From assembly GCF_001659605.2 (NCBI RefSeq), contig NC_035162.2, positions 11,489,248 through 11,553,247 on the forward strand: a stretch of 64,000 nucleotides of DNA, read 5' to 3'. Both the position numbers and the translations under genes were made by a program. Source of the DNA: Manihot esculenta. Lineage: Eukaryota; Streptophyta; Magnoliopsida; Malpighiales; Euphorbiaceae. The notes under the pieces were generated by a model. The model ran no database searches. It was not told the origin of the DNA and was given only the letters and a program-made list of their open reading frames with translations. How positions within the stretch are numbered: the first letter of the stretch is position 1; each line of letters opens with the position of its first letter. Shown here one piece after another: positions 12,129-50,359 of the stretch.

Positions 12129-12139
12129 TATAAATACCC
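12129..12139 (+). promoter_or_regulatory. TATA box of the Gag-only LTR
   Basis: CTATAAATACC is present here and in the 3' LTR near 27090. The solo LTR at 12150 was inserted about 12 bp downstream, where the transcription start would be expected. Confidence 0.6.
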
Positions 12140-12149
12140 CCATTGGCAA

Positions 12150-14464
12150 TGTAATACCCGGCTAGAATCCGGCATCGGAATTCCTGCCCTCCGGCGGAAT
12201 CTAGGGTGTTGGATCTCTCTAGAAGGGTAAAATGTATTTTCTAAATGTTTTTATAATGATTTCAATGGTTTTAATTGAAAAAGAATTGAGTTTTGAAGAG
12301 AAAAGACCAAGGAGGCAATTGCCAGGTTCGGCCGCCGAAAGTGAAGTTCGGCCGCCGAACATGGGAAGGCTTCGGGAGCGCCTTTGGCCTCCGAAAGTCT
12401 TGTTTAAACGAGCCAAGGTTCGGCCGCCGAAAGTCAAGTTCGGCCGCCGAACATGCATGAGTTTAGGGGGCACGTTAGGCTGCCGAAGGTCTTCGACCAG
12501 GCCACCTATAAAGGGCCCTCAGATCGGAAATGGATGAGTTTTCTCCCCATTCTCGAGCTCAGGTGTGTTCATGTCCTCCCTTGGTCAATTTCACGTTTTC
12601 TTCCAATCTTCTATGGTTTTTATGAGTTTCATTCTTGGTTTTGAAGAGTTTTAAGCTTGGATCAAGGAGTTTTGGGAGCTTGGAGCTTTTGGAGCTTGGA
12701 TTCTCCATACCTCCGAGTTAGGGGTCACACCACCCTCGATCTTCAAGAGGTAAGTGTAGATCCTTGTTTCCCTAGTGTTTTCATGAAGTTTTATGAAGTT
12801 TTTGATGGTTGAGTATGGGTAGATATGCATGTTTAGGTTTATGTGGGTTTTATACCCAATGTATGTTATGTGATGTTTGTGTTGAGGAGTTTATGTTAGT
12901 TTATGCTCCTTTATGCTTGTGGGAGTGAGTATGCATGATTGGGAGAGAGTATGTGAGGATTTGGGTATATTTGAGTTTGGTTTTTGGCTTGGCAGAATCG
13001 GACCTGTCGTCCAGAGGGGACCAGGTTCGGCCGCCGAAAGGAGTTTCGGCCGCCGAACCTGCATGGGAGGCAGTCTTTAGGCTGCCGAATGTGCCCCCGA
13101 AGGAGGGACTTTCGTTTCTGTCCTAGGGTTTCGGCCGCCGAACCTGCTGCCGAACCTACCCGAGTTTCGTCTCTGGAGGGGACTTTCGGCCGCCGAAGGT
13201 GCCGCCGAAAGTGCCCTGTCCAGCCGCTTCTTGGGTGTTTTCCATGCATGTTTAAGTGATGTTTAGAGGGGTATGTTTATGAGTTGTTAGAGTATGTTTG
13301 GCACCTCATTCGAGTCCACCTGTGTAGGATCGGACCCGAGAGACCGAGGAGGCCATTAGTACTAGCAGGTGCAGAGTCAGTCGGCGTCTGCCAGGAGGTG
13401 AGTAGAACTAAACCTAATCTTTTATGCACAAAATCTAATGCCTAAAGCATGTTCATGCATCATGATTATATGTAGTAGGTTGATTGCACTAGTTTCACGA
13501 ATATGACGCATTGCATTATTTCATGTTGATGCTGAGGAAGGGTGGACCGAGGCGACTTCAATAGCCCATATCTGTCACGAGTCTTGTCTTAGTCCTTTGA
13601 GAGCCGGACAAGTACATGTAGGAAAGTCCATGTGAGCTCTCTGTGGACCAGACACCATGTCATGTATGTTACAGGCCTTTGTGAGCTCCTATGGGGGAGC
13701 CGGGCACCGACAGAGGGATTTTTGATGTCATGTCCATCCTCTGAGAGGAAAGATGCATGCAAAAAGACAGACTCTCAGAAACCAGGGTCCGTGGGGAATA
13801 AATATTGCATAAGCCCCGAGGCGGACAAGATTATGTGATTTCTCTGTGTTATGATGCATTTCATGAAAGCATGTAATTAATGAACTGTTTTCTATGTTTC
13901 TACTCACTGGGCTTTTTAGCTCACCCCTTTCCCCTAACCCCAGTGTTGCAGGTTTAAGTCAGAGTCCAGAGGCTGCAGGGTAAAGTCAAGGTTAAGATAT
14001 GCATGTTGTAATAGCTTAGATTATGTTGATGTTTAGTATGTTAGAGTGGACATGTATTATAAATTCATGTAAGATAATGTAATGTTAAGTAAAGTTATGT
14101 CTATGGATTAGTTGTGCTTGGCCCTATAGACTGGTTAGTCCCTGTTAATGCATGGTTATGTTTATGTTATATGTTGAGTTGAGAACCAAACTTGAGGCAT
14201 GTAATGTTACCCCATTGGAGTATATGATGAGGACTCCAGTGGAGGTTTTATGATTTTATGATGTATGTTTCATGTCAGGATACATGCACAGGTCAGATTT
14301 GGGTTCAACAGATGTTCAGTTTACATGTTTTTATGGTTAAGTTTCAATCATGTATGGGATTTGACCAGGTAATAGTATGTATGTTTGGCTTGCTACGGGT
14401 CCCGGCGGCCTTAAGCCGATCTGGATCCTAGCGCCGGTGGCGGTCCGGTTTCCGGGTCGTTACA
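12150..14464 (+). mobile_element. Tekay/Del-type solo LTR
   Basis: It starts TGTAATACCCGG and ends GGTCGTTACA, the same termini as the full-length chromoviruses in this window. It is 2315 bp long and flanked by the 5-bp duplication GGCAA (12145-12149 and 14465-14469). There is no internal region, so it is a solo LTR left by LTR-LTR recombination. A TATA box lies at 12507-12513. Eight exact copies of the TTCGGCCGCCGAA palindrome are at 12327, 12347, 12419, 12439, 13026, 13045, 13130 and 13185. Splice-like sites: donor 12750, acceptor 13327, donor 13398, acceptor 13951. Confidence 0.92.
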
Positions 14465-14802
14465 GGCAACATGTAAACTCAAGAGAGAAAGAGTGGGAGC
14501 CTCCAACACCAAAATAGCCTTTGGGACACTTTGTGGTACATTTGTGAGCTTTCTTGTATTCTTGCCTTGTAAATTTTCCCAAGTGTAATATAAAAGCCAT
14601 TTTCCCCAATTCTCTTCCCTTCTAGCTTATTTAGCTTGTCTAGCTTCCTTCATCCCACAAGAGCTGGTTTAGCTCTTCACAACCCTTCAATTACTTTCCG
14701 CTGAGTGTTTGTGAGGTTAGGCTGACTTAGCTCGACGGACTGAGCTGAGTGCCGCACGGCTTAAGTGATTTTCGGGGTTGGAATCATTAAGCCCGTGACA
14801 AG

Positions 14803-14814
14803 TGGTATCAGAGC
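14803..14814 (+). other. Primer-binding site of the Gag-only element
   Basis: TGGTATCAGAGC is complementary to the 3' end of plant initiator Met tRNA. It begins 2 bases after the 5' LTR. The Tekay-type element at 14820 inserted directly beside it, with target duplication CATTG at 14815-14819. Confidence 0.9.
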
Positions 14815-14819
14815 CATTG

Positions 14820-17089
14820 TGTAATACCCGGCTAGAATCCGGCACCGGAATTCCTATTATCTGGCGGAATCCGGGGTGTTGGGATTCTATCTAAGGGTAG
14901 GAGTTGTGTGTTATTAAGGGTTATGATGTGTTTAAATGTTTTAAGGTTAAAGGAAGTGAGTTTTGAGTTGAAATGACCTCAGGCAGTTGAGCCAAGTTCG
15001 GCCGCCGAAAGTAAGTTCGGCCGCCGAAAGTGTTTGGCTTCCGAAGGGAAGTTCGGCCCCCGAATGTTGCATGGTCTTGCATGTCATTGGGCAGCCGACG
15101 ATGAGTTGGCCAGCCAAGCTGAGTCATGGCTTTTGACAGATGTTGGCCTCAGATTCTTGCCATGAATTAGCCACGTCTTCTATGACTCATTTGCAAGTGT
15201 TTTGAGCAGCTCATGCAGGAGTTTGCTCATTCACCAAGTTTTGAAGGGTTTGAAACAAAAAGTGAGTTTGAGAGAGTTTGAGAGTGTGAGAAGTGGTGAT
15301 CCGTTTTCCCTTGTTCAGAGTGTTTAGCTTCTTGCTACAGGAGGTAAGTGATGCACTTGAACATGTGTATATGTTTCTGAGTTTATGGGGATAAAGGAAG
15401 GAGATGCATGCTTAGGGTATTAATGGTAGTTTTAAAGAATTATGCATGGTTACATGTTTATATGTATGTTTGTTTTGTTATTTGGGGTTATTAGCTAGTT
15501 TTGGACCCCTGTGATCATATACATGAGTATATGTATGTTGAGGAGGTGAAGTTTGCATGGTTTGAGAAGTTGAAGGAAAGAGGGAGATGGTTTGCCATTG
15601 AAACTGAGTTCTGGATGAACTCAGGTTCGGCAGCCGAAAGTTCATTCGGCCGCCGAACCTCTTGCATGGTGGCTTAGGCTGCCATAGCTTGCCCCCGCGA
15701 GTTGTGCATGTTCGGCTCTATTTGGGGGATTCGGCCGCCGAAGGTGCCGCCGAAGGTTAGAGACTTTCGTCTCTGGAGTACCTTGTGGCCTCCGAAACTT
15801 GCCCCCGAAAGGGTTCGGCCGCCGAACATAGAGATTCGGCCGCCGAAGATGCTTAAGTTTCGTCTCTGGAGAGGACATTCGGCCGCCGAACCTGCCGCCG
15901 AAAGTGTTCTGTCCAGCTTTCTTTTACATGTGATACATGGCTAGTAGAGTGAGTGTAAGGGGATTCTTGGGGAGTTTATTAGAGTTGGTCATAAGCTTGT
16001 TTGGTCCCTCATTTGAGTCCATCTGTATAGGTACAGACCAGAGGAACCAGAGAGAGCAGCAGTGAGTACTGCTCCAGAGATTCAGAACCTGCAAAGTCAG
16101 TCAGTTCAGTTAGCCAGAGGTGAGTGGAATTAAACTTATAACTTTTAATTGAACCACAAACTGCTTTTAGCATATCTCATGCATCATGTTTATGCCATAG
16201 GTTGTTACATTAGTATTCACGAATATGTTGCATTGCATTATATTTGATGATGTGAGTAAATGCTGAATGATCCAATAGTCACAGACAGGAAGACCAGGAG
16301 CCTTTGACTACGCCCTGGCACGTATAGCAAAGACCAGGAGCCTTTGACTACGCCCTGGCAGGTATATAGTAAAGTCCAGGAGCCTTTGACTACGCCCTGG
16401 CAATGGTAAGTTCACAGGTGTTATATACACATATACATATATGACAGGAAGACCAGGTGCTCGATTCTACGCCCTGGCACAGAGTTACTGGGACTATGTG
16501 GTGACAGGTTTACTCTTGATGTGGCTTGTCTGTGATATGGTGCATTCCATGAGATCATATTTTACTGAGATGTTTTACTGTTCTACTCACTGGGCTATAG
16601 AGCTCATCCCACTCCCTTAACCCCAGTTTTGCAGGTTCAGTATTCAGTGTACAGTGTACAGGATGGGACAGTCCAGCAGAGTACAGAAAAAAGTAAAGAG
16701 ATCTGTAATAGCTTAGAGTGGACATGTAATATTAACGAGATATAATAGTTGTAGCTTGACCTAGTGATGTTTGTGTTGTACATGATCTGTATATGTATAT
16801 ATGTTTTCCTGTATGTGAAAACCAGGCTTAACAGGTATGAGTTAACCCATCTAGAGCAAGCTCTAGTCAGGGATACAGAGTACAGAGTACATGAGTACAG
16901 AGTACAGAGATAGTGCATGCACAGGTTGAGCCTTGGTTCAGAAAAGAGTTTTATTTTCACATAAAATGTATGATCATGTATGAGGTTTACAGGTACACAG
17001 AGAGTATAGCAGGCTTGCTACGGGTTCTGGCGGCCTTAAGCCGACCTGAATCCTAGCGCCGGTGACGGTCCTTTTTTGGGGTCGTTACA
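14820..17089 (+). repeat. 5' LTR of the complete chromovirus
   Basis: It has termini TGTAATACCC and GTCGTTACA. Seven exact copies of TTCGGCCGCCGAA lie at 14997, 15016, 15645, 15730, 15814, 15835 and 15878. I see no clear TATA box, unlike its relatives. Splice-like sites: donor 15344, acceptor 16030, donor 16120, acceptor 16634. An array of CCAGG...CCCTGG units occupies 16291-16480. Confidence 0.95.
16291..16480 (+). repeat. Stem-loop tandem repeat in the LTR (about 40-bp units)
   Basis: Units starting AGACCAGGAGCC or AGTCCAGGAGCC lie at 16291, 16331 and 16373, with a fourth diverged unit at 16450. Each can pair CCAGG with the CCTGG at its end. The identical array in the 3' LTR is at 23755-23944. 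Confidence 0.9.
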
Positions 17090-17092
17090 GAT

Positions 17093-17104
17093 TGGTATCA
17101 GAGC
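17093..17104 (+). other. Primer-binding site of the complete chromovirus
   Basis: TGGTATCAGAGC begins 3 bases after the 5' LTR and matches the initiator Met tRNA type used by most plant Ty3 elements. Confidence 0.93.
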
Positions 17105-17310
17105 CCTAGGTTCACATGATCGGACCTATAGAGACAGTGTTGGGCTCAGACAGGTTAGAAGTGGTCAAGCACAATAGGGAAATCATGTCCACTAGGATAG
17201 GGTTTTGAGTCCTATCTGCTATGATATGCCATGAGTATTGCATGTGTATGAGTGATATGTGATGTTTATGTGCTAAGTGGTATGTTATATGTTGTGTTTC
17301 CAGAGTAAAG

Positions 17311-20300
17311 ATGCGAGGAACTCGTCGATCAGCTCGATTGACTGGAGTCCCACCAGAGAGTGAAAGACCAGCTGCTCGTCCTCCTGCATTGCCAAGGGCA
17401 AGGTCTCAGAGATCTAGCAGGGAAGGTATGTCAATAGACCCTAGAAGGTCTGTAGACGAGAGCAGAAGAGGAACAGTTAGGGGAGGAAGATCAGAGGAAA
17501 GGAGGGAGGCTATGGAGACTGATCCGTCTATGGATGAAGGTATGGGCGATTCCGAGGGAGGCGTTCAGGCCTCAGATTATGGTTATCCATCCTTGTTTCA
17601 GGAGCCAGAGTATCCGATGGAGGGTATGTCGGAATACTCTCGTTTTGACCCATATCCTACATACATGCCATATATGCCATATCCTCACTGCTATCCACCA
17701 TATCCTATGTATCCATCTTCCCCTACCCGCCCAAGTGCAGCACACCTAGAGCCAAATGAACCAGTACCACCACCAGAACCAGTAGTCCCTGTTGTTGACA
17801 GGCATGAACCTAGCTCATCTAGAGGTAAAGTTCAAATGACGGAGTACTTGAAATTGGATGCTCCGAAATACAATACGGGAGATGATCCATTTGATTACCT
17901 CAGAGCAGTTAGGATGATCACCAGTGAATTGGGAGCAGATGATAGGAGAGCCATTGAGATGGCAGGTTTCACAATAAAATGCAAGAAAGCCAGAGAATGG
18001 TTTAAGAATTATGTGGAGCCTAGAATGGACAGTATGTCATGGGGAGAGTTCGCCAATGAGTTTGCAGGGTGGGCTTTTCCTGATAGTTCGAGGGAGATGA
18101 AAGTAATTGAATTTGAACAGTTGCGACAGACAGATGAGATGAGTGTTGATGAATTTACAGATAAGTTCCTGGATCTGCTTCAGTACGTGGGTCAAGCCTA
18201 TGATACTGATCAGAAGAAAGCAAGGAGATATACCATGAGACTTCATCCCAGGTATTCTTCTTTGATCCTTCCAGCTGAGAAGGAGAGTTTTCACTCTATT
18301 ATAGATGCAGCCAGGAAGATGGAAGCTAGTGCCAATATTCAGAAACAGTCAAGGGCACAAGCTTCGGGTTCTAAAGCCCCCAGTTCAGGTTCTACAGGCA
18401 ATAAAAGATGGGAGAGAGCGAGAGGAACAAGGAAAGGGTTCTGGAGTAAAGTCAAGTCAGGTCTGGGAATAGGTAGTGGCTCAAGCTCTGGCACAGCTCC
18501 AGTCTGCAGACGATGCGGAAAACCACATGGCGGAGTTTGTCGGTTGGGATCTACAGTTTGTTTTCGATGTGGACAGGAAGGGCATATTGCTCGGGATTGT
18601 CCGCAGATGACTTTTGCACCATCCCAGCAGATGAGTTCAGGCAGTGTGGTACAGCCAGTTGTACGGCCAGTAGCTTCAGTCATGCCTCAGAGTAGTGGCA
18701 GAGGTAGAGGGAGAGGGGTAGCCTCTACTTCAGCAGCAGGTTCCCGAGGTGGAAATCCGGTAGCCCCAGCACGGATTTTCACAGTGACACAGGAGGAGGC
18801 TAACACGTCGAACACAGTGGTGTCAGGTAATCTCATCATTGGGTGTTCAGATGTGTATGCTTTGATGGACCCCGGTGCTTCTCATTCCTTTATTGCTTCG
18901 AGAGCCATAGAGCGGTTGGGTTTGATCAGATCTGAGTTAGAGTATCCTCTCTGGGTCAGTGGACCTAGATGTGACCCATCAGTGGCAGTGTCAGTCTGTC
19001 GTTTCAGTCCAGTGTTTATAGAGGGTAGATGCCTTCCAGCTGACCTTGTGGTTCTAGACTTGACAGATTTTGATGTCATTCTAGGGATGGATTGGCTATC
19101 TGCATATAGTGCTACGTTGGACTGTCGAGAAAAGCTAGTGAGTCTCAGAGACCAGGATGGGTCAGAGTATGTCTTCAGAGGAGACAGGAGAGGTACACCC
19201 AGAGGTATGATTTCAGCCCTTCAGGCTCGTCGTTTGCTTAGGAGGGGTTGTCAGGGGTTTCTAGCTCATGTGAGAGAGCTAGATAGTCAGGTTAGGGAAC
19301 CAGCCACAGTACCAGTAGTCCGAGAGTTTCTCGATGTGTTCCCAGACGATTTACTAGGACTACCACCTGATAGGGAGATAGGGTTTGACATTGAATTATT
19401 GCCAGGTACCAGACCTATCTCTATACCTCCCTACAGGATGGCGCCAGCTGAGTTAACAGAGTTGAAAGAACAGTTGCAGGACTTGGTAGATAAGGGTTTC
19501 ATCCGCCCTAGTACCTCACCTTGGGGTGCTCCAGTGCTCTTTGTCAGAAAGAAGGATGGATCCCTCAGACTTTGTATCGACTACAGACAGTTGAACAAGG
19601 TCACTATCAAGAATAGGTATCCTTTACCTCGGATTGATGATCTATTTGACCAGCTAGCTGGAGCAGGTTGTTTCTCGAAAATAGATCTGAGATCTGGGTA
19701 TCATCAGTTGAGAGTCAGAGAGGCAGATGTGCCTAAGACAGCTTTTCGGACCAGATATGGGCATTATGAGTTCTTAGTGATGCCGTTCGGGTTGACTAAC
19801 GCCCCTGCAGCATTCATGGATCTCATGAACAGAGTATTTAGTGAGTTTCTGGATCACTTTGTCATTGTGTTTATCGATGATATCTTAGTGTATTCCAGAG
19901 ATGCAGAGGAGCATGCCCAGCATCTGAGGATTGTTTTGCAGACACTGAGAGAGCATGGTTTGTATGCCAAGTTCTCGAAGTGTGAGTTTTGGTTGGGGAG
20001 CATTTCCTTCTTGGGACATGTAGTATCAGCAGAGGGTATTGAGGTAGATCCCAAGAAGATAGAGGCTGTAGCTAACTGGCCCAGACCTACGACAGTAACT
20101 GAGATTAAAAGCTTTCTGGGACTGGCAGGTTACTACAGGAGGTTCGTTCAGAACTTCTCAAAGATAGCAGCTCCTATGACCAAATTGACTCAGAAGAACC
20201 AGAAGTTTATCTGGTCAGACCAGTGTGAAGAGAGCTTTGAGGAGCTCAAGAGGAGATTGACCACAGCACCAGTGTTAGCTCTGCCTGTGAGTAATGAGGA

Positions 20301-22209
20301 CTTCACAGTATTCTGTGATGCATCTCGAGTGGGATTGGGTTGTGTATTGATGCAGAATGATAGAGTAATAGCTTATGCTTCTAGACAGTTGAAGAAGCAC
20401 GAGTTGAATTACCCTACCCATGACCTAGAAATGGCAGCAGTTATCTTTGCACTTAAGATATGGCGGCATTACCTCTATGGGGTTAAATGCGAGATCTTCA
20501 CTGATCACAAGAGTTTACAGTACATCATAAGTCAAAGAGAGCTGAATTTGAGGCAGCGAAGATGGGTTGAATTGCTCAGTGATTATGATTGTAAGATCCA
20601 GTATCATCCGGGTAAGGCGAATGTTGTCGCAGACGCCCTAAGCCGGAAGTCACTAGGCAGTTTATCCCATATAGCAGCAGAGCGGAGACCGGTTGTAATG
20701 GAACTTTATAAGCTCTTTGACGAGGGATTACAGTTAGAGTTGTCTGGTACAGGTGCGTTGATAGCACAGATGAGAGTGACACCTGTGTTTCTGGAGCAGA
20801 TAGCTCAGAGACAGCATGAGGACCCTGAGTTGATGAAAATTGCCAGGACTGTTCAGTCAGGCAACAATGCAGAGTTCAAATTTGATAGTAAAGGGATCCT
20901 TCGCTATGGAAGTCGACTTTGTGTACCAGATAGGGGCAGTGTGAAGGAAGACATTATGAGGGAAGCTCATAATGCGAGGTATAGTGTTCACCCAGGAGCT
21001 ACCAAGATGTATCAGGATCTGAAAAGGATCTATTGGTGGCCAGCCATGAAGAAAGAAGTGGCGCAGTTCGTGACAGCCTGTGAGGTTTGTCAGAGGGTGA
21101 AATTAGAACATCAGAAACCAGCCGGAATGCTGAACCCATTACCGATTCCAGAGTGGAAATGGGAGAACATAGCCATGGATTTTGTAGTGGGTTTACCAGT
21201 AGCGTCCAAGATAGACTCGATATGGGTGATTGTGGACAGACTCACGAAATCTGCTCATTTTCTTCCAGTACGGAGTAACTATTCTGTGGATAAGTTAGCA
21301 CAGGTCTATCTGGATGAGATAGTGAAATTACATGGAGTTCCAGTGTCTATAGTTTCAGACAGAGGACCTCAGTTTACCTCCCGTTTTTGGCGGAGTCTGC
21401 AAAGTGCGATGGGCACGAGGTTGGATTTTAGTACTGCTTTCCACCCACAGACTGATGGACAGTCAGAAAGGACCATCCAGACCATAGAGGATATGCTTCG
21501 CCTATGTGTGTTAGACTTTGGCGGTTCTTGGAGGCAGCATCTACCTTTGGTGGAGTTTGCCTACAATAACAGTCATCATGCTAGCATTGGGATGGCTCCT
21601 TATGAAGCTTTGTATGGGAGGAAGTGCAGATCCCCTGTTTGCTGGGAAGAGGTAGGAGAGAAAGCTCTTGCAGGGCCAGAGTTAGTAGACATTACCAGTA
21701 GAATGGTGCCCATGATCAGAGAGAGAATCAGAACAGCTCAGAGTAGACAGAAAAGTTATGCAGACATTCGCAGGAAGCAGTTAGAATTTCAAGAGGGTAA
21801 TTGGGTATTGCTGAAAGTGTCTCCAATGAAAGGAGTGGTTCGTTTTGGGAAGAAGGGTAAATTAGCTCCACGGTACATTGGACCCTTTGAGGTGTTGCAG
21901 AGGATCGGAAATGTGTCGTATAAGCTGGATTTACCTGTTTCTATGGAGAGGATTCACCCGGTATTTCATGTTTCTATGCTACGACAGTTTGTGTCAGATC
22001 CGAATCAGGTTCTGAGTGAGCCTGAGGTGGAGATTCACACAGATCTCACCTATATAGAGCAGCCAGTGCGGATTCTGGACACGCAGATCAGACAGCTAAG
22101 GAACAAGGAAATTCCGATGGTGACAGTTCTATGGAACCACCATAACCTAGAAGAGTGCACATGGGAGACGCGGGAGTCTATGCTCCAGCAATATCCATAT
22201 TTGTTTTAA
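17311..22209 (+). CDS. Gag-Pol polyprotein of a Tekay/Del-type chromovirus
   Basis: This single 1632-residue frame encodes all retrotransposition functions. Gag capsid-like region: about 175-340 (WFKNYVEPR at about 230). Zinc knuckle: [14 protein letters not shown] at about 417, preceded by a half-knuckle [12 protein letters not shown] at about 398. Aspartic protease: [11 protein letters not shown], with Asp520. Reverse transcriptase: FIDD box at 854-857. RNase H: FCDAS with Asp1003. Integrase: zinc-binding His at about 1227, then catalytic Asp1290, Asp1350 and Glu1386 (a DD-35-E spacing). A chromodomain-like C-terminus with [15 protein letters not shown] lies at about 1600-1625. The start [15 protein letters not shown] is conserved in the minus-strand relative. 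The protease box reads D-P-G rather than D-S/T-G, which the relative shares. No stops or frameshifts are present, so the protein could be functional. A donor-like AAGGTGAGT overlaps the stop codon. Confidence 0.95.
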
Positions 22210-22283: not shown

Positions 22284-24553
22284 TGTAATACCCGGCTAGA
22301 ATCCGGCACCGGAATTCCTATTATCTGGCGGAATCCGGGGTGTTGGGATTCTATCTAAGGGTAGGAGTTGTGTGTTATTAAGGGTTATGATGTGTTTAAA
22401 TGTTTTAAGGTTAAGGGAAGTGAGTTTTGAGTTGAAATGACCTCAGGCAGTTGAGCCAAGTTCGGCCGCCGAAAGTAAGTTCGGCCGCCGAAAGTGTTTG
22501 GCTTCCGAAGGGAAGTTCGGCCCCCGAATGTTGCATGGTCTTGCATGTCATTGGGCAGCCGACGATGAGTTGGCCAGCCAAGCTGAGTCATGGCTTTTGA
22601 CAGATGTTGGCCTCAGATTCTTGCCATGAATTAGCCACGTCTTCTATGACTCATTTGCAAGTGTTTTGAGCAGCTCATGCAGGAGTTTGCTCATTCACCA
22701 AGTTTTGAAGGGTTTGAAACAAAAAGTGAGTTTGAGAGAGTTTGAGAGTGTGAGAAGTGGTGATCCGTTTTCCCTTGTTCAGAGTGTTTAGCTTCTTGCT
22801 ACAGGAGGTAAGTGATGCACTTGAACATGTGTATATGTTTCTGAGTTTATGGGGATAAAGGAAGGAGATGCATGCTTAGGGTATTAATGGTAGTTTTAAA
22901 GAATTATGCATGGTTACATGTTTATATGTATGTTTGTTTTGTTATTTGGGGTTATTAGCTAGTTTTGGACCCCTGTGATCATATACATGAGTATATGTAT
23001 GTTGAGGAGGTGAAGTTTGCATGGTTTGAGAAGTTGAAGGAAAGAGGGAGATGGTTTGCCATTGAAACTGAGTTCTGGATGAACTCAGGTTCGGCAGCCG
23101 AAAGTTCATTCGGCCGCCGAACCTCTTGCATGGTGGCTTAGGCTGCCATAGCTTGCCCCCGCGAGTTGTGCATGTTCGGCTCTGTTTGGGGGATTCGGCC
23201 GCCGAAGGTGCCGCCGAAGGTTAGAGACTTTCGTCTCTGGAGTACCTTGTGGCCTCCGAAACTTGCCCCCGAAAGGGTTCGGCCGCCGAACATAGAGATT
23301 CGGCCGCCGAAGATGCTTAAGTTTCGTCTCTGGAGAGGACATTCGGCCGCCGAACCTGCCGCCGAAAGTGTTCTGTCCAGCTTTCTTTTACATGTGATAC
23401 ATGGCTAGTAGAGTGAGTGTAAGGGGATTCTTGGGGAGTTTATTAGAGTTGGTCATAAGCTTGTTTGGTCCCTCATTTGAGTCCATCTGTATAGGTACAG
23501 ACCAGAGGAACCAGAGAGAGCAGCAGTGAGTACTGCTCCAGAGATTCAGAACCTGCAAAGTCAGTCAGTTCAGTTAGCCAGAGGTGAGTGGAATTAAACT
23601 TATAACTTTTAATTGAACCACAAACTGCTTTTAGCATATCTCATGCATCATGTTTATGCCATAGGTTGTTACATTAGTATTCACGAATATGTTGCATTGC
23701 ATTATATTTGATGATGTGAGTAAATGCTGAATGATCCAATAGTCACAGACAGGAAGACCAGGAGCCTTTGACTACGCCCTGGCACGTATAGCAAAGACCA
23801 GGAGCCTTTGACTACGCCCTGGCAGGTATATAGTAAAGTCCAGGAGCCTTTGACTACGCCCTGGCAATGGTAAGTTCACAGGTGTTATATACACATATAC
23901 ATATATGACAGGAAGACCAGGTGCTCGATTCTACGCCCTGGCACAGAGTTACTGGGACTATGTGGTGACAGGTTTACTCTTGATGTGGCTTGTCTGTGAT
24001 ATGGTGCATTCCATGAGATCATATTTTACTGAGATGTTTTACTGTTCTACTCACTGGGCTATAGAGCTCATCCCACTCCCTTAACCCCAGTTTTGCAGGT
24101 TCAGTATTCAGTGTACAGTGTACAGGATGGGACAGTCCAGCAGAGTACAGAAAAAAGTAAAGAGATCTGTAATAGCTTAGAGTGGACATGTAATATTAAC
24201 GAGATATAATAGTTGTAGCTTGACCTAGTGATGTTTGTGTTGTACATGATCTGTATATGTATATATGTTTTCCTGTATGTGAAAACCAGGCTTAACAGGT
24301 ATGAGTTAACCCATCTAGAGCAAGCTCTAGTCAGGGATACAGAGTACAGAGTACATGAGTACAGAGTACAGAGATAGTGCATGCACAGGTTGAGCCTTGG
24401 TTCAGAAAAGAGTTTTATTTTCACATAAAATGTATGATCATGTATGAGGTTTACAGGTACACAGAGAGTATAGCAGGCTTGCTACGGGTTCTGGCGGCCT
24501 TAAGCCGACCTGAATCCTAGCGCCGGTGACGGTCCTTTTTTGGGGTCGTTACA
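22284..24553 (+). repeat. 3' LTR of the complete chromovirus
   Basis: It has the same length as the 5' LTR, 2270 bp, with two substitutions seen. It carries the same seven palindromes, each offset by 7464 bp, the same stem-loop array and the same splice-like sites. The element ends at 24553 and is followed by CATTG. Confidence 0.95.
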
Positions 24554-26724: not shown

Positions 26725-27454
26725 GGTTCAGCGGGCACGCTGGCAGGCCGCGCGAGGCTGGCGGGCCGAGCGCGCAGGGGGACGATGCTGGTTGGTCGCG
26801 CGGGGAAACGAGGTTCACGCGGGCTGGAAGACGCACGAGAATTCCAGAAGCTTCGAGGATTCTCCAGGCGCTGCTGGAAGCTACCAGGCGCGGGCAGAGA
26901 GGCGCAGGCGGGCGCGGGGCGCGGGGCGCGCGGAGCGCACAGGCCCGTGGCACGCCAAAATGAGGTTCATTGCCAGAATCTGCCAGAAAATTCCAGAACG
27001 TCCCAGATTGCTCCCAAACCGCCCAAACAGGGGCAGACACGTGGAAAAACACCAACCACGAGTTAAGGTCGGTTGAGCACCCTCATTTGCCTATAAATAC
27101 CCCCATTGGCAACATGTAAACTCAAGAGAGAAAGAGTGGGAGCCTCCAACACCAAAATAGCCTTTGGGACACTTTGTACACACTTTGTGGTACATTTGTG
27201 AGCTTTCTTGTATTCTTGCCTTGTAAATTTTTCCAAGTGTAATATAAAAGCCATTTTCCCCAATTCTCTTCCCTTCTAGCTTATTTAGCTTGTCTAGCTT
27301 CCTTCATCCCACAAGAGCTGGTTTAGCTCTTCACAACCCTTCAATTACTTTCCGCTGCGTGTTTGTGAGGTTAGGCTGACTTAGCTCGACGGACTGAGCT
27401 GAGTGTCGCACGGCTTAAGTGATTTTCGGGGTTGGAATCATTAAGCCCGTGACA
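26231..27454 (+). repeat. 3' LTR of the Gag-only element
   Basis: It is an uninterrupted 1224-bp copy with termini TGTCACGG and CCGTGACA. It shows the sequence CATTGGCAACATG at the position where the 5' LTR was hit, confirming that insertion. It lacks about 30 bp of GC-rich repeat present near 11790 and carries a short extra ACTTTGTACAC near 27170. Confidence 0.92.
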
Positions 27455-27459
27455 AATAG

Positions 27460-37475: not shown

Positions 37476-39886
37476 TGTCGCCTATTGAAGGTCTCTCCCT
37501 GCAGAATCGGCTAATTTTTTGCACCTTGATCACCCATAAGGCTGCTAAGCATGTTGGTAGGCCTACGGACCAGACAGATTGCTCAACCCAGTAGATAGAT
37601 ATCGCTAGGGTAAGAAAGAACTCTTGCCACAAATAAGGTTCCAACGGCCCGTCTCGCAAGCCCATGGAGGACAACTACGGGAAATCTCTTAAATTTGCCA
37701 AAGCGTGCAATCTATCATGGGCCAATTTGTACAATAAGGCCTCAAATTGCCCCAAACGAACCCAACGCACACTAGAAGCTTCCAGGCAAAACAAGATTCG
37801 ACGAGCAAGTTCTCTGCGCACGAGAAGGTTTTGGAATTGGCCAGTCCAGCGCTCAAGTGAGGTTTGACTGCCGTAATCTGCCAGAATTTTCTGGAAGCTT
37901 CCTAACTCTTGTAGTCAGTTATTGTACATAGAATTTTCTAGAAACTCTTACGCCTATAAATAGGGATAGTCACCCTCATTTTCAACTACTGTAAAAATTT
38001 GTAAAGCACCCATACTCTTATAAAGCATTCTTTGTGTAATACCCGGCTAGACTCCGGTATCGGAATTCCTACCGTCCGGTGGAATCTCGGGTGTCGGAGA
38101 CCTCTAGAAGGGTAAAACTATGTTTTCATAAAATGTTTTAATGTGTTTTATGTTTTAAGCATGAAAGAAAATGAGTTTTTGCATGAAAACAACCTTGGAG
38201 GAAAACTCAGGTTCGGCCGCCGAACCTCAAGTTCGGCCGCCGAACCTCAAGTTCGGCCGCCGAACATGCATGCGTTTCGGGTGTGCCTTAGGCCCCCGAA
38301 AGCATAAGTGAGGGAAACCAGGTTCGGCCGCCGAACCTTATGTTCGGCCGCCGAACATGGCATGCATGCGGAGGCACTTTCGGCTCCCAAACGTGGCCTG
38401 GCCAGCCACCTATAAGGGGTCCCTTAGCCGAAAACGGGCGAACTTTTCTCCCCATTTTCGGCCAAGGTGAGCTCTCCGCCATCCCTCGCCGGTTTTGAGT
38501 TCCTTCCTTCAAATCTTTCTCGATTTTCATTAGTTTTACCCTTGTTTTAAAGATTTTGAGTATTTGAGCAAGTTTTGGAGCTTGGAGGTTCAAGGAACTC
38601 TCTCTCTCCCATTTTCCGAGCTAGGGTCGTTCTCCTCTCGATCTTCAAGAGGTAAGGGTCGATCTTGAGCTTATGGCATGTTTTAAGTAAGTTTTAAGTA
38701 GATCTATGGGGTAGAATGCATGTTTAGCTTATGGTTAGGTTTATGGGTTTATGTTATGTTTTTGGACAATGTGGATGTTTGATGTGTTGTAGATGGGGTT
38801 TAAGATAGTTTGAAGCCCCTAGGAACTAGTATGCTTGAGTATGTATGTTGTAGATTAGGAAAAATGCATGTTTGGTTGGTTTTGGAAGGCAAAGGTGCAT
38901 GAGGAGCCAAGTTTTTGCCCTTTGGCAGAAACCAGGTTCGGCAGCCGAAGGACTTTCGGCCGCCGAACCTGCTTGGGAGGCCAGCCTTTCGGCTGCCGAA
39001 GCCTGCCCCCGAAAAGAGACTTTCGTCTCTGGAGGGCACTTTCGGCCGCCGAAGGTGCCACCGAACCTGTCTGGCTTTCGGCTCTGGAGGGACTTTCAGC
39101 CGCCGAACCTGCCGCCAAAAGTGCCCTGTTCAGCCTTCCTTTGCATGTTTTTGCATGGATGTTTTGAGGTGTTTTAGAGGGTTTTTGGGGGATGTTTTTA
39201 GAGTTATGTTCTAGTTGTTTAGTCCCTCATTTGAGTCCACCTGTGTAGGTTCGGACCCGAGGAACCGAGGACCCCAGCAGTGAGTCAGCTGCTTCAGTCA
39301 TTGTCAGAGCTAGTTGAGGTGAGTAGAATAAACACTTATGTTTTAAAGCAAATCAATATAAATTTGAGCATGTTCATGCATCACGAATGATATGTGATAT
39401 TCTAGGTTATTTGCATTAGAATTCACAAATATGTTGCATTGCATAATTTGATGATGATGTGGATGGTTATTGGATGATCCTTAGTCCTCGATATGATGGG
39501 ATGTGATATGATACGGTATGGTACGGAAGTCCAGGTTGTACCCATTCTACGTCCCTGGCACATTGGAATGTTATGTTATGCTATGTTAAGAGAAAGACTG
39601 GTTGACCCATTCTACGTCCTGGCACTTTGGAATGTAGAGGACTCTTGGTGACAATACCATCCATGATGTGATTTGTCTGTGATGTGTTGCATTCCATTAT
39701 AGCATATGATTTAAATGTTTTATTATTCTGCTCACTGGGCTCTAGTAGCTCACCCCTTTTCCCTAATCCCCCAGGGTTGCAGGTACAGGCTAGACAGAGA
39801 AGTCAAGGTGAATGAAGTCTTGAGTTGTAATAGTTAGAATGTGGACATGACAAATTGTATAATGATGTAAAGTTATGAATAGTTAT

Positions 39887-42155
39887 TGTAACGACCCGGA
39901 AATCCGACCCGTTACCGGCGCTAGGATCCAGATCGGCTTAAGGCCGCCGGGACCCGTAGCAAGCCTACATACCTCCTGTAAACCTGTGGAATCCCATACA
40001 TAACAACATATACATGATCTGTAAAAATTTTCTTTTCTCTTATCCAAGCAAAACCTGTGCATGCACAAAATCATACATAAACCTCACACTGGAGTCCTCA
40101 TCAAATACTCCAATGGGGTATCATCATCATACATATCAACTTGGATAATCATGGTCATTAACATCATTACTCATTAAACACTCTGTACATAATGGGGATT
40201 CACACACCTCTAGGTCAAGCACTACTATAATCCTCAATACATCATCAAATCATTCGTTACATTACATGGTCATAAATACTCATTACATCATGTTCATGTC
40301 CACTACTATCTATTACAACATACATGACTTGACTTCACTCTAGCCGACTTCTTGATCTATCCTGTACCTGCAACTCTGGGGATAAAGGAAGTGGGGTGAG
40401 CTACTAGAGCCCAGTGAGCAGAAACTAAAAACATTTGTTTTAATTCCTCCATTTTTAGGTATATTATTATTCATTTTATTATTATTATTATCATTTAACT
40501 TTTTCTTTCTTTTTTTCTTATTCATGCTTTCATGTATGCGCCATAACACAAACATTTCACAACAAGGATGAATTTGTCACCATTTAGCCCCTATCGTTCT
40601 TACTTATACATGCCGGGGGCGTAGAGCCGTAGCAGGCACACCCGGACTTCCATAATCTGTCATAGTGCCAGGGGCGTAGAGCCGTAGCAGGCACACCTGG
40701 ACTCACATAGGCTATCATGACATACAAGGGCTAATGGATCATTCAACATTCATCCACATCAACAACAAAGTATGCAATGCAACATATTCGTGAATTCTAA
40801 TGCAAACAACCTAATATTGCATGGCATAATGATGCATGGGCAATGCTTTATGATTCATTCATTTATTCATTTACTTTAAAGCTTAAGGGGTTGTTCCACT
40901 CACATGGTAACTGAAGCTTTAACAACGAACTCTGAACGACTATCTAACAACCGGGGGTCTCGGTTCCTCGGGTCCGAACCTACACAGGTGGACTCAAATG
41001 AGGCACCAAACATACATGAACATGACTCTAAAATACTCCCCAAAAAACCCCTAAAACATCCTGAAAACATCACATGAAAACATGCAAGAAATGGCTGAAC
41101 AGGGCACTTTCGGCGGCACCTTCGGCGGCCGAAAGTCCTGGACAGAGACGAAACTCAGGTAGGTTCGGCGGCACCTTCGGCGGCCGAAAGTGCCAGACAG
41201 AGACGAAAGTCTCTTTTCGGGGGCAACTTCGGCAGCCGAAAGGCCTGCCTCCCCAGCCATGTTCGGCGGCCGAAAGTACCTTCGGCTGCCGAACCTGGTT
41301 TCTGCCAAAGGGCAGAAACTTGGCTCCCTTAGCACATTTCGCCTCCAAACCTTCCAAACATGCATATTGTTCAACCAAAGCATGCATACAAGTTCCTAGG
41401 GGCCTCAAACATGCATATACCCCATCTACAACACTTCAATCACACACAATCAAGCTACATTGTTCAAAAAGTCATCAAAAACCCATAGGTTTAACATATA
41501 CCCTAACATGCATTCTACCCCTTAAAACTTCATAAAACTTGTTTAAATCATACATTGAGCTTAAGATCGGCTCTTACCTCTTGAAGATCGAGGGTTGAGG
41601 AGATCTAAACTTGGAGATGGGAGAAGTTCCAACTTTTGGTCTCCAAGCTCCAAAACTCGTTCTAAGCTCCAAGATCTTCAAAAACAAAGTTATAAACTTG
41701 TAAAGATCAGGGAAAAAGGAAGGAAAAACTCAAGATTGGGGAAGGATGGCGGAATGCTCACCTTGGCCGAAATGGGGAGAAAAAGCTCGCCCATTTTCGG
41801 CTAAGGGACCCTTTTATAGTGGCTGGCCAGACCACGTTCGGGGGCCGAATGTGCCTCCGCATCCATGCAAATGTTCGGCGGCCGAACCTTGACTTCCCTC
41901 ACTCATGCTTTCGGGGGCCTAACGTGCCTCCAAAACGCATGCATGTTCGGCGGCCGAACTTGACTTTCGGCGGCCGAACCTGGGTTTTCCTCCAAAGACT
42001 TTTCATGTAAAAACTCATTTGATTTCTTACTTAAAAACATAAAATACATGAAAACATTTCATAAAATCATGGTTTTACCCTTCTAGAGGTTTCCGACATC
42101 CGAGGTCCCACCGGACGGTAGGGATTCCGATACCGGAGTCTAGCCGGGTATTACA
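39887..42155 (-). repeat. 3' LTR of the minus-strand chromovirus
   Basis: On its own strand it starts TGTAATACCC (at 42155) and ends GTCGTTACA (at 39887). TATA sequence is at 41812-41818. Splice-like sites on the minus strand: donor 41577-41576, acceptor 40981-40980, donor 40903-40902, acceptor 40369-40368. The TATA-to-donor distance is about 241 bp, as in the two solo LTRs. Confidence 0.93.
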
Positions 42156-45200: not shown

Positions 45201-47244
45201 CATGAGCTAGAAACCCCTGACATCCCCTCCTAAGCAACCTACGAGCCTGAAGAGCTGAGATCAGACCTCTAGGTGTACCCCTCTTGTCTCCTCTGAAGAC
45301 GACCTCTGACCCATCCTGATCTCTGAATCTGACTACCTTGTCTCTACAGTCCAAGGTAGCACCATGGGTCGATAACCAATCCATCCCTAGAATGACGTCA
45401 AAATCTGTCAAATCTAGAACCACGAGGTCGGCGGAAAGGCATCTTCCCTCTATGAAAACTGGACTACATTGGCAGACTGCCTCTGCCACTGACGGGTCAC
45501 ACTTGGGTCCACTGACCCATAGGGGACACTCTAACCCAGAGACCATCAATCCTACCCTCTCCACGAGTCTCGGAGCAATAAAAGAATGAGATGCACCCGG
45601 GTCCATTAAGGCATACACATCAGAACAACCAATGATGAGATTACCTGCCACCACGGTGTTGGATGTGTTGGCCTCCTGCTGAGTCATAGTGAAGATCCGT
45701 GCCGGAGCTGATGGACCTTCACCTCTGTATCCTGCTGATGAAGAGGCTGACCCTCTCTCTCTGCCTCTGCCACTGGCCTGTGTTGCGGCTGGAGCTACTG
45801 GCTGCACCACACTGCCGGAGGTTGTCTGCTGAGACGGTGCTGTAAAGGCTCCTCTAGGACAGTCTCGAGCCAAATGACCCGCCTGTCCGCATCTGAAACA
45901 TGTGTTTGTCCCTGCCAGACATACTCCCTTGTGTGGTCTCCCACATCTCATACATGCTGTAACCTCTGCGCCAGAGCTTGAGCCACTGCCTAAACCCAGA
46001 CCTGACTTGATCTTGTTCCAGAACTTATTCTTCTTAGATTTTCTGTGGCCTCTGTCCCACTTCTTACTGCCTGCAACTGCTGCACTTAGAGAAGAGGAGT
46101 CTACCCTTTCCCCACCTGGGGTCTTGGAACCAGAAGACTGTGCCACTGACTGTTTTACCTTCCCCTCAACGATAGCACTAGCCTCCATTCTCCTAGCCAT
46201 ATCCACTATGGCATGGAAACTCTCTCTCTCTGCTGACTGTACCAAAGAGGAATACCTGGAGTGCAGCCTCATAATATATCTCCTTGACTTCTTTTGATCT
46301 GTGTCCAAATTCAGCCCAGCATATGGCAACAACTCCAGGAACCTGTCTGTGTACTCGTCTACACTCATGTCATTAGTTTGCCTCAACTGCTCGAATTCTA
46401 TCATCTTCAATTCCCTTGAACTATCAGGGAAAGCCCATCCTGCAAACTCGTTTGAAAACTCGTCCCAATTCATGCTGTCCACTCTCGGGTTCACATAATT
46501 CTTGAACCACTCCCGTGCCTTCTTGCACTTAAGCGTGAACCCGGCCATCTGAATGGCTCTACTGTCATCGGCCCCTATCTCATCTGTAATTGCCTTGACC
46601 CGCTCCAAATACACGAACGGATCATCACCGGTTTCAAACTGGGGAGCACCCAGCTTCATGTAATCGGTCATCTTGACCTTGCTCCCTCTAGATGAGGTAG
46701 GTTTGGGTACTTGTGTTTCCGGGACAGTAGATACTGGTGGTGGTGGAGGTACAACATCCCCTGGGGTAGGGTTTGCTGTACTGGTATAGGGAGGTGGAGG
46801 CGGGTACATGGGGTACTGAGAGTATGGTGGGTAGTAAGGTGGGTATGGCATATGTGGAGGATAAGGGCTAAAACTGGGGTAATCCGATGTACCTCCCATC
46901 GAATACCCTGGATGGTGTGAATAGGGTGGGTAGTGATGTGGCTGGACATAACTCGAGGCCTAAGTGCCTCCTTCTGATTCTCCCATGCCCTCTTCCGGTA
47001 TGCTTACACCAAGACTGCCATCCCTCCTCTGATCTACTTCCATATCCTCAGACATTCCTCCCTGCACTGTTCCCCTTACTGATCTGCTTCTACCCAGATC
47101 CAAAGACCTTCTAGGGTCTCTAGCTACTCTATCTCTGTTGGACCTACTGGACATTGCCCTAGGCAATGCTGAAGGACGGGCATCAGCGCCCTCGTCCTGA
47201 GGTGGCACTCCAGTCAATCGTGCAGATCGACGAGTTCCTCTCAT
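42259..47244 (-). pseudogene. Gag-Pol of the minus-strand chromovirus with two in-frame TAG codons
   Basis: The frame runs from the ATG at 47244 ([15 protein letters not shown]) to a stop at 42259, 1662 codons including the stop, with no frameshift. TAG interrupts it at codon 95 (46962-46960) and at codon 708 (45123-45121). The relative in this window has Gln near the first position. The second lies in the protease-to-RT linker, where the relative is acidic. The rest is intact: zinc knuckle CFRCGQAGHLARDC, protease [17 protein letters not shown], RNase H, integrase with SDRGPQFTS and [11 protein letters not shown], and a chromodomain-like end. As it stands only short Gag pieces could be made, unless readthrough or a downstream start (for example MGGTSDYP at 46899) is used. 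Confidence 0.92.
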
Positions 47245-47492
47245 TCTATCTTCTGAAAAACAGCACAAGCAATCATTAGCATCATATGGTTCATGTGGAA
47301 ACACATGAACCCTCATCACATACATAGCATCACATCATAGCATTTATGCACATGCATATCATCATGGCATATCATATCATCATATAGACAGGACTCTACC
47401 TCCCATCCTAGTGGACATGATTTTCCTAGTGTGCTTGACCTTCTAGAACATCTATGAGCCCGACACTCTAGGTCCGACCATATGAACCTAGG

Positions 47493-47507: not shown

Positions 47508-49776
47508 TGTAACGACCCGGAAATCCGACCCGTTACCGGCGCTAGGATCCAGATCGGCTTAAGGCCGCCGGGACCCGTAGCAAGCCTACATACCTCCTGT
47601 AAACCTGTGGAATCCCATACATAACAACATATACATGATCTGTAAAAATTTTCTTTTCTCTTATCCAAGCAAAACCTGTGCATGCACAAAATCATACATA
47701 AACCTCACACTGGAGTCCTCATCAAATACTCCAATGGGGTATCATCATCATACATATCAACTTGGATAATCATGGTCATTAACATCATTACTCATTAAAC
47801 ACTCTGTACATAATGGGGATTCACACACCTCTAGGTCAAGCACTACTATAATCCTCAATACATCATCAAATCATTCGTTACATTACATGGTCATAAATAC
47901 TCATTACATCATGTTCATGTCCACTACTATCTATTACAACATACATGACTTGACTTCACTCTAGCCGACTTCTTGATCTATCCTGTACCTGCAACTCTGG
48001 GGATAAAGGAAGTGGGGTGAGCTACTAGAGCCCAGTGAGCAGAAACTAAAAACATTTGTTTTAATTCCTCCATTTTTAGGTATATTATTATTCATTTTAT
48101 TATTATTATTATCATTTAACTTTTTCTTTCTTTTTTTCTTATTCATGCTTTCATGTATGCGCCATAACACAAACATTTCACAACAAGGATGAATTTGTCA
48201 CCATTTAGCCCCTATCGTTCTTACTTATACATGCTGGGGGCGTAGAGCCGTAGCAGGCACACCCGGACTTCCATAATCTGTCATAGTGCCAGGGGCGTAG
48301 AGCCGTAGCAGGCACACCTGGACTCACATAGGCTATCATGACATACAAGGGCTAATGGATCATTCAACATTCATCCACATCAACAACAAAGTATGCAATG
48401 CAACATATTCGTGAATTCTAATGCAAACAACCTAATATTGCATGGCATAATGATGCATGGGCAATGCTTTATGATTCATTCATTTATTCATTTACTTTAA
48501 AGCTTAAGGGGTTGTTCCACTCACATGGTAATTGAAGCTTTAACAACGAACTCTGAACGACTATCTCACAACCGGGGGTCTCGGTTCCTCGGGTCCGAAC
48601 CTACACAGGTGGACTCAAATGAGGCACCAAACATACATGAACATGACTCTAAAATACTCCCCAAAAAACCCCTAAAACATCCTGAAAACATCACATGAAA
48701 ACATGCAAGAAATGGCTGAACAGGGCACTTTCGGCGGCACCTTCGGCGGCCGAAAGTCCTGGACAGAGACGAAACTCAGGTAGGTTCGGCGGCACCTTCG
48801 GCGGCCGAAAGTGCCAGACAGAGACGAAAGTCTCTTTTCGGGGGCAACTTCGGCAGCCGAAAGGCCTGCCTCCCCAGCCATGTTCGGCGGCCGAAAGTAC
48901 CTTCGGCTGCCGAACCTGGTTTCTGCCAAAGGGCAGAAACTTGGCTCCCTTAGCACATTTCGCCTCCAAACCTTCCAAACATGCATATTGTTCAACCAAA
49001 GCATGCATACAAGTTCCTAGGGGCCTCAAACATGCATATACCCCATCTACAACACTTCAATCACACACAATCAAGCTACATTGTTCAAAAAGTCATCAAA
49101 AACCCATAGGTTTAACATATACCCTAACATGCATTCTACCCCTTAAAACTTCATAAAACTTGTTTAAATCATACATTGAGCTTAAGATCGGCTCTTACCT
49201 CTTGAAGATCGAGGGTTGAGGAGATCTAAACTTGGAGATGGGAGAAGTTCCAACTTTTGGTCTCCAAGCTCCAAAACTCGTTCTAAGCTCCAAGATCTTC
49301 AAAAACAAAGTTATAAACTTGTAAAGATCAGGGAAAAAGGAAGGAAAAACTCAAGATTGGGGAAGGATGGCGGAATGCTCACCTTGGCCGAAATGGGGAG
49401 AAAAAGCTCGCCCATTTTCGGCTAAGGGACCCTTTTATAGTGGCTGGCCAGACCACGTTCGGGGGCCGAATGTGCCTCCGCATCCATGCAAATGTTCGGC
49501 GGCCGAACCTTGACTTCCCTCACTCATGCTTTCGGGGGCCTAACGTGCCTCCAAAACGCATGCATGTTCGGCGGCCGAACTTGACTTTCGGCGGCCGAAC
49601 CTGGGTTTTCCTCCAAAGACTTTTCATGTAAAAACTCATTTGATTTCTTACTTAAAAACATAAAATACATGAAAACATTTCATAAAATCATGGTTTTACC
49701 CTTCTAGAGGTTTCCGACATCCGAGGTCCCACCGGACGGTAGGGATTCCGATACCGGAGTCTAGCCGGGTATTACA
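47508..49776 (-). repeat. 5' LTR of the minus-strand chromovirus
   Basis: This copy is 2269 bp, offset 7621 from the 3' LTR. On this copy the candidate leader introns are 49198-48601 and 48524-47989 with a 76-nt exon at 48600-48525 between them. An acceptor-like TGTTTTTCAG ends at 47253, eight bases before the gag ATG. Confidence 0.93.
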
Positions 49777-50359
49777 GTTATGTTATGTAAATATTGATTA
49801 TGAGATTGAGGTTTAGAAGTTGTGCTTGACCGAGTTTGCATGATAATCCCTCTTGTAAGCATAATCTATGTTTAAAATGTTTTTGTTCCACCAAGCTCGT
49901 GTATGATGAAATGTCCCATTGGAGCATTTGATGAGAGCTCCAGTGTGGGGTTTATGTTTATGTTATGTATATGTTTATGTGCATGCACAGGTTGAGCTTG
50001 GAAAAAAAAAAAGAAAAGTTCAAATTTTTATGTATGTTGCTGATCATGTATGGGATTTGACAGGTGCTCAGGTTTATGTCAGGCTTGCTACGGGTCCTGG
50101 CGGCCTTAAGCCGATCTGGATCCTAGCGCCGGTAGCGGTCCGGTTTTCGGGTCGTTACACTTTGAGAGTTAGTAAACTTTCTTTACCAAACTATTGCCAC
50201 ATTTTCCTCTCTACCTTCACACCCACGTTTCCTTAGCCAATATCTTGCAATCTCAATTAGCCAATCAAGGGGGATAAGGCTGACTAGCTTACTCATTGTG
50301 GGAGTTTGCTAGTGCTGCAAGAGAAAAACACTTGGGAAAATAAGTGAGCCCATGACAAG

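Follow-up and report, generated by a model that had tools for sequence, protein, structure and literature searches.

Plant LTR retrotransposons are generally intron-free, with Ogre and EVADE among the exceptions listed in a 2025 review (PMC12786077). For Ogre, a plant Ty3/gypsy element of the Tat group, splicing of part of the transcripts is described (PMC6317226). Spliced subgenomic RNAs are on record for the plant LTR elements EVD/EVADE (shGAG), Bagy2 and CRR (PMC12786077, PMC3735527), and in the Ty1/copia element BARE1 splicing separates the translated from the replicated RNA (PMC3735527). The leaders of the pararetroviruses CaMV and RTBV are rich in upstream open reading frames (uORFs) and hold a splice donor; the same leaders serve packaging and reverse transcription (PMC5902531). 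In the TyH3 assay, intron loss marks passage through spliced RNA (PMC12786077). In sunflower, splicing has been reported for expressed elements, and Tekay is absent from the expressed set as described (PMC7730604).

A 64,000-nt stretch of plant genomic DNA (the window) was analysed here. The results suggest, with a probability of about 0.85, that the LTR of a Ty3/gypsy chromovirus-type element doubles as an intron-bearing 5′UTR. Splicing apparently rids the leader before gag of its many false start codons. Genomic copies that lack intron 1 provide good support for its removal; the rest of the splicing scheme, including the Gag-Pol mRNA, is likely and partly inferred.

LTR types of the window and the layout of their splice sites

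Four related LTR types are present in the window, which lies on contig C2 of the 640-Mb genome searched: those of complete element A, of solo LTRs B and C, and of minus-strand element D. Element A (forward strand, target-site duplication [TSD] CATTG) consists of a 5′ LTR at 14820..17089, a primer-binding site (PBS; TGGTATCAGAGC) at 17093..17104, an intact gag-pol ORF at 17311..22209 and a 3′ LTR at 22284..24553 with 2 differences from the 5′ copy. Element D (minus strand, TSD GTTAT) has its 5′ LTR at 47508..49776, its PBS at 47493 and its 3′ LTR at 39887..42155, with 3 differences between the two LTRs. With near-identical LTR pairs, TG..CA ends, TSDs and a PBS, both are LTR retrotransposons. 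Solo LTR B (forward strand, TSD GGCAA) occupies 12150..14464. The solo LTR reported at 38035 does carry the sites ascribed to it, but it is one LTR split by element D, which sits inside it: the left part of C (forward strand, TSD CTTTG) covers 38035..39886, and the remainder lies past D at 49782..50159 (forward strand).

Pfam matches in A, with three pieces searched apart, run in the order gag, protease, RT, RNaseH, integrase, which is that of Ty3/gypsy elements. A C-terminal Chromo match (E = 0.00074, 19.8 bits) is below the curated cut-off of 25.1. The clade name Tekay, given in the preliminary description and defined by the RT/polyprotein phylogeny of PMC6317226, would be a putative one here. 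The intron between gag-prot and pol ORFs by which Ogre is recognised is absent, A having a single ORF of 1632 aa. The Gag piece is 59% identical to the best covering match named cassava.

The preliminary description had listed two donors (D1, D2) and two acceptors (A1, A2) in each LTR. All listed sites are present, and D1, A1, D2 and A2 follow in the same order in the same alignment columns, in LTRs that are only 59-77% identical in pairs. In A (forward strand), exon 1 is placed at 15133..15343, its start being inferred and its last 120 nt free of ATG. Intron 1 spans 15344..16030 (D1, GAG/GTAAGT; A1, TGTATAG/G), exon 2, without ATG, 16031..16119, and candidate intron 2 16120..16634 (D2, GAG/GTGAGT; A2, TTTTGCAG/G). 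The corresponding D1, A1, D2 and A2 are at 12750, 13327, 13398 and 13951 in B, at 38652, 39248, 39319 and 39782 in C, at 41577, 40980, 40903 and 40368 in the 3′ LTR of D, and at 49198, 48601, 48524 and 47989 in its 5′ LTR. The middle exon measures 89, 70, 70 and 76 nt in A, B, C and D, in agreement with the 70-89 nt given before. The near-constant TATAA-to-D1 distance also held (243, 241 and 241 nt in B, C and D); there is no TATA box at this place in A, where the 211-nt exon 1 has 4 ATGs. A GT abuts A2 (16635..16636 in A, forward strand), a conserved donor-like site that may delimit a zero-length exon. A putative poly(A)-like element, TGTAATAG, follows A2 by 44-70 nt in all four window LTRs (16704..16711 in A, forward strand). 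CCAGG..CCTGG hairpins occur in intron 2 of A (four), C and D, and B has none. The A1 block of this LTR family has about 27,000 copies in the genome (26,799). Outside the host, no relatives were found in viral_contigs, and three matches to the A1-block pattern in MAGs (257 Gb) are about the chance level by our own estimate.

Sites were scored with an approximate plant splice-site matrix. By this matrix, D1 is the top-ranked donor in each of the four window LTRs. Scores are 5.4-6.6 for D1, 3.7 for D2 (1.6 in D), 1.1-4.4 for A2 and 0.5-1.8 for A1. They overlap those of three homology-placed introns in a 14-3-3 gene of the window (donors 4.5, 4.5, 5.2; acceptors 5.3, 3.2, -0.1). In the minus-strand element, D2 follows an unfavourable exon sequence (CAT/GTGAGT) and ranks 25th of 187 GTs; the GT abutting A2 ranks 18th of 208 in A. 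A weaker third donor, GTRAAG, had been proposed at 16693 in A and 47959 in D; with ranks of 20 of 208 and 129 of 187 it is not convincing and was rejected. GAGGTAAG is the only invariant run of at least 7 between alignment columns 319 and 923 of the four window LTRs. A run of at least 8 arose on shuffling these columns with P = 0.0076, and a crude neutral simulation kept such a donor in all four LTRs with a probability of 0.002.

Conservation was then assessed in LTRs sampled from the genome. The sampling anchor was a U5 motif containing none of the sites (16,899 copies; control 0). Eighty loci, all on contig C1, were fetched among 100 listed U5-anchor places. Sixty of the 80 entered the alignment by having the LTR-start motif TGTAATACC more than 1500 nt upstream of the anchor; an alternative LTR-start anchor pattern was TGTAATACCCGGCTAGA. 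Together with the four window LTRs they make 64 sequences, or 35 clusters at 90%, four of which are the window types. The length filter disfavours LTRs without intron 1 and dropped at least one, L058.

In the 35 clusters, GT is kept at D1 in 31 (absent in 4) and at D2 in all 35, and AG is kept at A1 in 32 and at A2 in 33. For pairs of adjacent columns lying 9-100 columns from each site, those equally conserved number 10/135 for D1, 7/133 for D2, 21/149 for A1 and 24/88 for A2. LTR-wide conservation percentiles, from an earlier set of 49 sequences in 29 clusters, are 0.78 (D1), 0.86 (A1), 0.90 (A2) and 0.965 (D2). Many other LTR dinucleotides are equally conserved, so the contrast of the sites is with their local flanks. 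The expected excess of GT/AG conservation over neighbouring bases is seen against most local flanks and is smaller against the LTR as a whole. A scan of all columns, with no prior choice of sites, was also carried out in 34 cluster representatives. The best conserved donor columns were D1, the GT abutting A2 and D2 (medians 6.0, 4.0 and 3.8; best antisense 3.3). D1 was the top-scoring donor in 21 of these representatives, and the GT abutting A2 was present in 97%. The best acceptor column was A2 (median 3.3; best antisense 1.8), while A1 came fifth with a median of 1.4, below the best antisense. In 25/35 clusters a TATAA precedes D1 by 237-243 nt, and in 30/35 TGTAATAG follows A2 by 20-110 nt. 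Exon 2 measures 59-89 nt, a length not divisible by three in 20/35 clusters, so a coding role is unlikely.

Base composition of the predicted segments was also recorded. The T fraction is 0.367 in exon 1 and 0.33 in intron 1; T is scarce in exon 2 and in the first 28 nt after A2. Ordinary plant exons are T-poor relative to introns, unlike exon 1 here, and T-richness was dropped as an intron test because exon 1 is not T-poor.

Upstream start codons and the acceptor before gag

Counted from the assumed start to gag, the unspliced leader of A has 68 ATGs and that of D 107; complete splicing would bring these numbers down to 5 and 1, respectively. Use of A2 in D would create one ATG at the junction. 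For counts in LTRs, the predicted exons were taken as the 211 nt before D1, exon 2 and the 28 nt after A2. In the four window LTRs they contain 7 ATGs where 47.2 are expected, or 0 where 33.5 are expected when exon 1 is trimmed to 120 nt; in the 35 clusters the count is 80 against 404.6 (ratio 0.20). ATGs per 100 nt amount to 0.97/0.08/0.61 in the exons, 3.5/4.79 in the introns, 5.78 in the LTR after A2 and 2.65 in U3. Exon 2 is without ATG in 33/35 clusters and the last 120 nt of exon 1 in 22/35. The longest ATG-free stretch covers exon 1 to just past D1 in B, C and D, and A1, exon 2 and D2 in A. Observed/expected ratios of other trimers in the exons are 0.95 (GAT), 0.87 (TGA), 0.76 (TAG), 0.62 (CAT), 0.40 (GTA) and 1.37 (AGT). 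Since GTA is also depleted, the ATG effect may be partly one of composition. When single leaders were compared with random placement, related LTRs not being independent, P was 0.0012 for D and 0.12 for A, so that the depletion is not significant in A taken alone. The proposal that splicing would remove most upstream ATGs is supported by the ATG-poor predicted exons.

An acceptor just before the gag ATG (A3) had been noted in both full elements, and it recurs: a CAG that closes a pyrimidine-rich tract is found 5-10 nt upstream of the ATG in 20/20 leaders. These are A, D and 18 loci with a recognisable gag ATG among the 26 PBS-bearing loci of the 80, some being near-identical. The last intron base is 17303 in A (forward strand), 7 nt before the ATG, and 47253 in D, where the gag ATG is at 47244 (47244..47253, minus strand). 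Between the PBS and the ATG lie 16-19 AGs, among which A3 ranks first in 13 leaders and second in 7. Back-translation of N-terminally extended gag homologues (P0001, P0002, P0003, P0007) is compatible with the same acceptor arrangement. The exon 2-gag junction pattern was defined as AGCCAGAGN{4,11}ATGMGAGGAAC.

The exact exon 2-exon 3 junction gave 0 genomic matches, with 10/64 LTRs eligible against 21/64 for the exon 1-exon 2 junction described below. Either intron 2 would be needed for packaging or copying, or D2 would be joined mainly to A3; D2-A3 joining would remove the PBS, leaving an RNA that cannot be copied. A3 would be joined either to D2 or to the conserved GT next to A2.

The main role of the introns could instead be to raise transcription or to hide the element from silencing, with gag translation incidental. 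The first intron is promoter-proximal, and CGATCTT flanks D1 in C and D, loosely like the motif TTNGATYTG (PMC6760150). The match is only partial, however, and ATG depletion in the exons and A3 before gag are left unexplained; this role as the principal one appears doubtful. Less probable again is that intron 1 is real but A3 unused, Gag-Pol being made by shunting or internal entry on the rest of the leader as in plant pararetroviruses. CaMV and RTBV combine shunting with leader splicing (PMC5902531), many uORFs precede gag, and copies with the exon 2-exon 3 junction were not found in the genome. Against this, ribosomes would face 68 (A) to 107 (D) upstream ATGs in the leader, and the stretch between the PBS and the gag ATG alone holds 9-26 in the 20 leaders. 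The single predicted MFE fold of each leader (A, D) has no dominant long hairpin, and A3 is kept in every one of the 20.

Genomic copies without intron 1

The exact exon 1-exon 2 joint was searched genome-wide as a 23-nt pattern with up to 2 mismatches. It was found at 62 + 39 = 101 places, where homologues of intron 1 of A are precisely absent; the reversed pattern gave 0. This count covers the exact junction only, the spacing pattern for inexact loss being TCTTCAAGN{0,30}TCGGACCCGAG. The 100 places listed are spread over 18 contigs. Among them are 31 same-strand pairs 3.5-25 kb apart, 12 of which are at 6.87-7.05 kb, the LTR spacing of A and D (7464, 7621) minus an intron of ~600 nt.

Twelve of the 101 loci were fetched; the way the search was built ensures that each has the junction. 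Upstream of it, 11/12 have an LTR start and 9/12 a TATAA at a distance of 239-242 nt; downstream are the D2 motif in 10/12, the A2 motif in 11/12 and the PBS in 5/12. TSDs were read for two whole intron-1-less elements (AATTT, TTACT) and one solo LTR (TTGTT); two of the four LTR pairs, L093/L094 and L099/L100, are without a recognised LTR end. L101/L102 are 92% identical over the 5′ flank to L062, which is without the junction. In the sample of 80 loci described above, one is intron-1-less, namely L058 (= L092), with an LTR of 1544 nt.

These copies could be ancestral or ordinary deletions, intron 1 then being an insertion or spacer. Shorter intron-1 regions do exist, of 406 nt in L016 (D1 not recognisable) and 430 nt in L024. 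Yet the junction matched with zero mismatches at 53 of the 100 places listed, and the 12 fetched loci fall into 7 lineages at 85%, which are only 59-79% identical to each other. Some are nearest to LTRs that contain intron 1: over the 3′ flank, L099/L100 share 91% identity with B, and L095 shares 93% with L068. The GT of D1 and the AG of A1 are moreover retained in 31 and 32 of the 35 clusters. This origin is consequently very improbable. That GT/AG conservation belongs to an unrelated promoter or RNA element, splice-like by chance, is scarcely credible, as the precise intron-1-less copies against zero control matches largely refute it and D1 is the top donor in 21/34 representatives, even though many LTR blocks are equally conserved and the acceptor score of A1 is not high.

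Exact junctions in 7 lineages, some copies having canonical 5-bp TSDs, thus argue that intron 1 is spliced in vivo at D1/A1 and that the spliced RNA is sometimes reverse-transcribed. Repeated reverse transcription of intron-1-spliced RNA is the simplest reading of the intron-1-less copies. The idea, as first envisaged, that mRNA is spliced and genomic RNA strictly unspliced has to be given up: RNA devoid of intron 1 and keeping intron 2 and the PBS has apparently been reverse-transcribed and has integrated repeatedly.

Proposed splicing scheme and comparison with known systems

With the LTR acting as an intron-bearing 5′UTR, transcription would start ~210 nt before D1, as judged from the TATA box fixed at 237-243 nt. 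Splicing of D1 to A1 would take out intron 1, a step backed by the genomic copies. Joining of D2, or of the GT next to A2, to A3 (5-10 nt upstream of the gag ATG) in a second step would drop the remainder of the leader with its hairpins, U5 and the PBS and produce an almost ATG-free Gag-Pol 5′UTR. A2 with the downstream TGTAATAG probably constitutes the terminal exon of RNAs ending in the LTR. The replicating RNA would have to retain the PBS and would usually retain intron 1 too; intron-1-spliced RNA would occasionally be reverse-transcribed and integrate as a normal element. Thus, of the multiply spliced leader predicted in the preliminary description, removal of intron 1, the conserved sites and A3 stand, while use of D2, A2 and A3 and the Gag-Pol product are candidates. 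Introns of the 3′ LTR would come after the gag-pol stop codon and could thereby expose the RNA to nonsense-mediated decay, which counts against the model.

An extension of this scheme is put forward tentatively. The LTR may be a self-contained spliced transcription unit, with promoter, exon 1, intron, exon 2 and second intron in that order, in which TTGCAG/GT then acts as both acceptor and donor, choosing between the LTR poly(A) end and recursive-style re-splicing to the gag acceptor. As upstream ATGs and packaging-like hairpins lie in the introns, the splicing decision would set the fate of the RNA (terminated, translated or replicated), and RNAs spliced at intron 1 only would leak into replication. 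Elements without the intron would remain uncommon, its presence being required for long-term success.

An intron-bearing LTR retrotransposon with the introns inside the LTR, forming a spliced 5′UTR, appears to be new. At the title/abstract level, with most subscription journals outside the scope, no report of introns inside plant LTRs was found, the sole phrase match being to a lentiviral vector. The arrangement suggests how a long leader filled with upstream ATGs can still yield Gag, and allows the balance of translation and replication to be tested through RT-PCR of the junctions. A further implication is that genes next to any solo LTR could receive a spliced 5′ exon from it.

The described systems differ from this one mainly in where the intron lies. 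Ogre has its intron between reading frames, whereas the present element has a single gag-pol ORF and carries its introns in the LTR and leader. The introns described for EVD/EVADE, Bagy2 and CRR serve gag, env or pol RNAs, none being described in the LTR. Caulimoviruses have no LTRs and a much shorter leader than that seen here. For CaMV and RTBV, the acceptors described are in downstream ORFs (PMC5902531). BARE has a 104-nt intron at the end of gag, and its capped and uncapped RNAs are described as coming from two TATA boxes (PMC3735527). In the TyH3 assay the intron was inserted, whereas here it is the element's own and within the LTR, and its losses are natural; the intron-1-less copies would thus document in the genome, as a natural experiment, that spliced RNA is reverse-transcribed.

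Splice-site context within the LTRs

The splice-site scores were referred to a positive control within the window, the three introns of a 14-3-3 gene (9216-5999, minus strand), whose positions were set through homology. A GT dinucleotide lies immediately 3' of A2, the acceptor of candidate intron 2, at 16635, 13952, 39783 and 47988. This GT is kept in 97% of the 34 representative LTRs, and it is donor-like with a median score of 4.0. The abutting GT may mark a zero-length exon or serve as a recursive splice site. The region of intron 1 is shorter in two LTRs from the genome-wide sample, L016 (406 nt) and L024 (430 nt), the former being without a recognisable D1 donor. These appear to be ordinary deletions, unlike the precise losses, in which genomic copies lack exactly intron 1.

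A probable host element and genomic abundance

A direct repeat of 94-95% identity was found between 11243-12149 plus 14465-14812 and 26230-27466, its first copy being interrupted by the solo LTR B. The PBS-like sequence TGGTATCAGAGC at 14803 adjoins the insertion site of the complete element A. The two repeat copies are probably the LTRs of another element, into which both B and A were inserted. The three ORFs within or beside this repeat gave no Pfam matches. Across the whole genome, GAGGTGAGT was counted 47,187 times and the same pattern reversed 3,269 times, while the block at the intron 1 acceptor A1 has 26,799 copies. Thus, LTRs of this type probably make up a sizeable share of the genome.

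Repeated motifs and hairpins

Within the LTRs, near-palindromes of the form TTCGGCCGCCGAA are repeated across both U3 and intron 1, at 29 places on the plus strand. CCAGG..CCTGG hairpins are seen at 16294-16477 in A (four), with one counterpart each in the split solo LTR C and the minus-strand element D and none in B; all lie in intron 2. These hairpins could act as packaging signals, which only transcripts still containing intron 2 would carry. CATGCATCA and GCATTGCAT, also of intron 2 (alignment columns 1493-1501 and 1554-1562), are invariant across all four LTRs of the window, and they resemble RY motifs.
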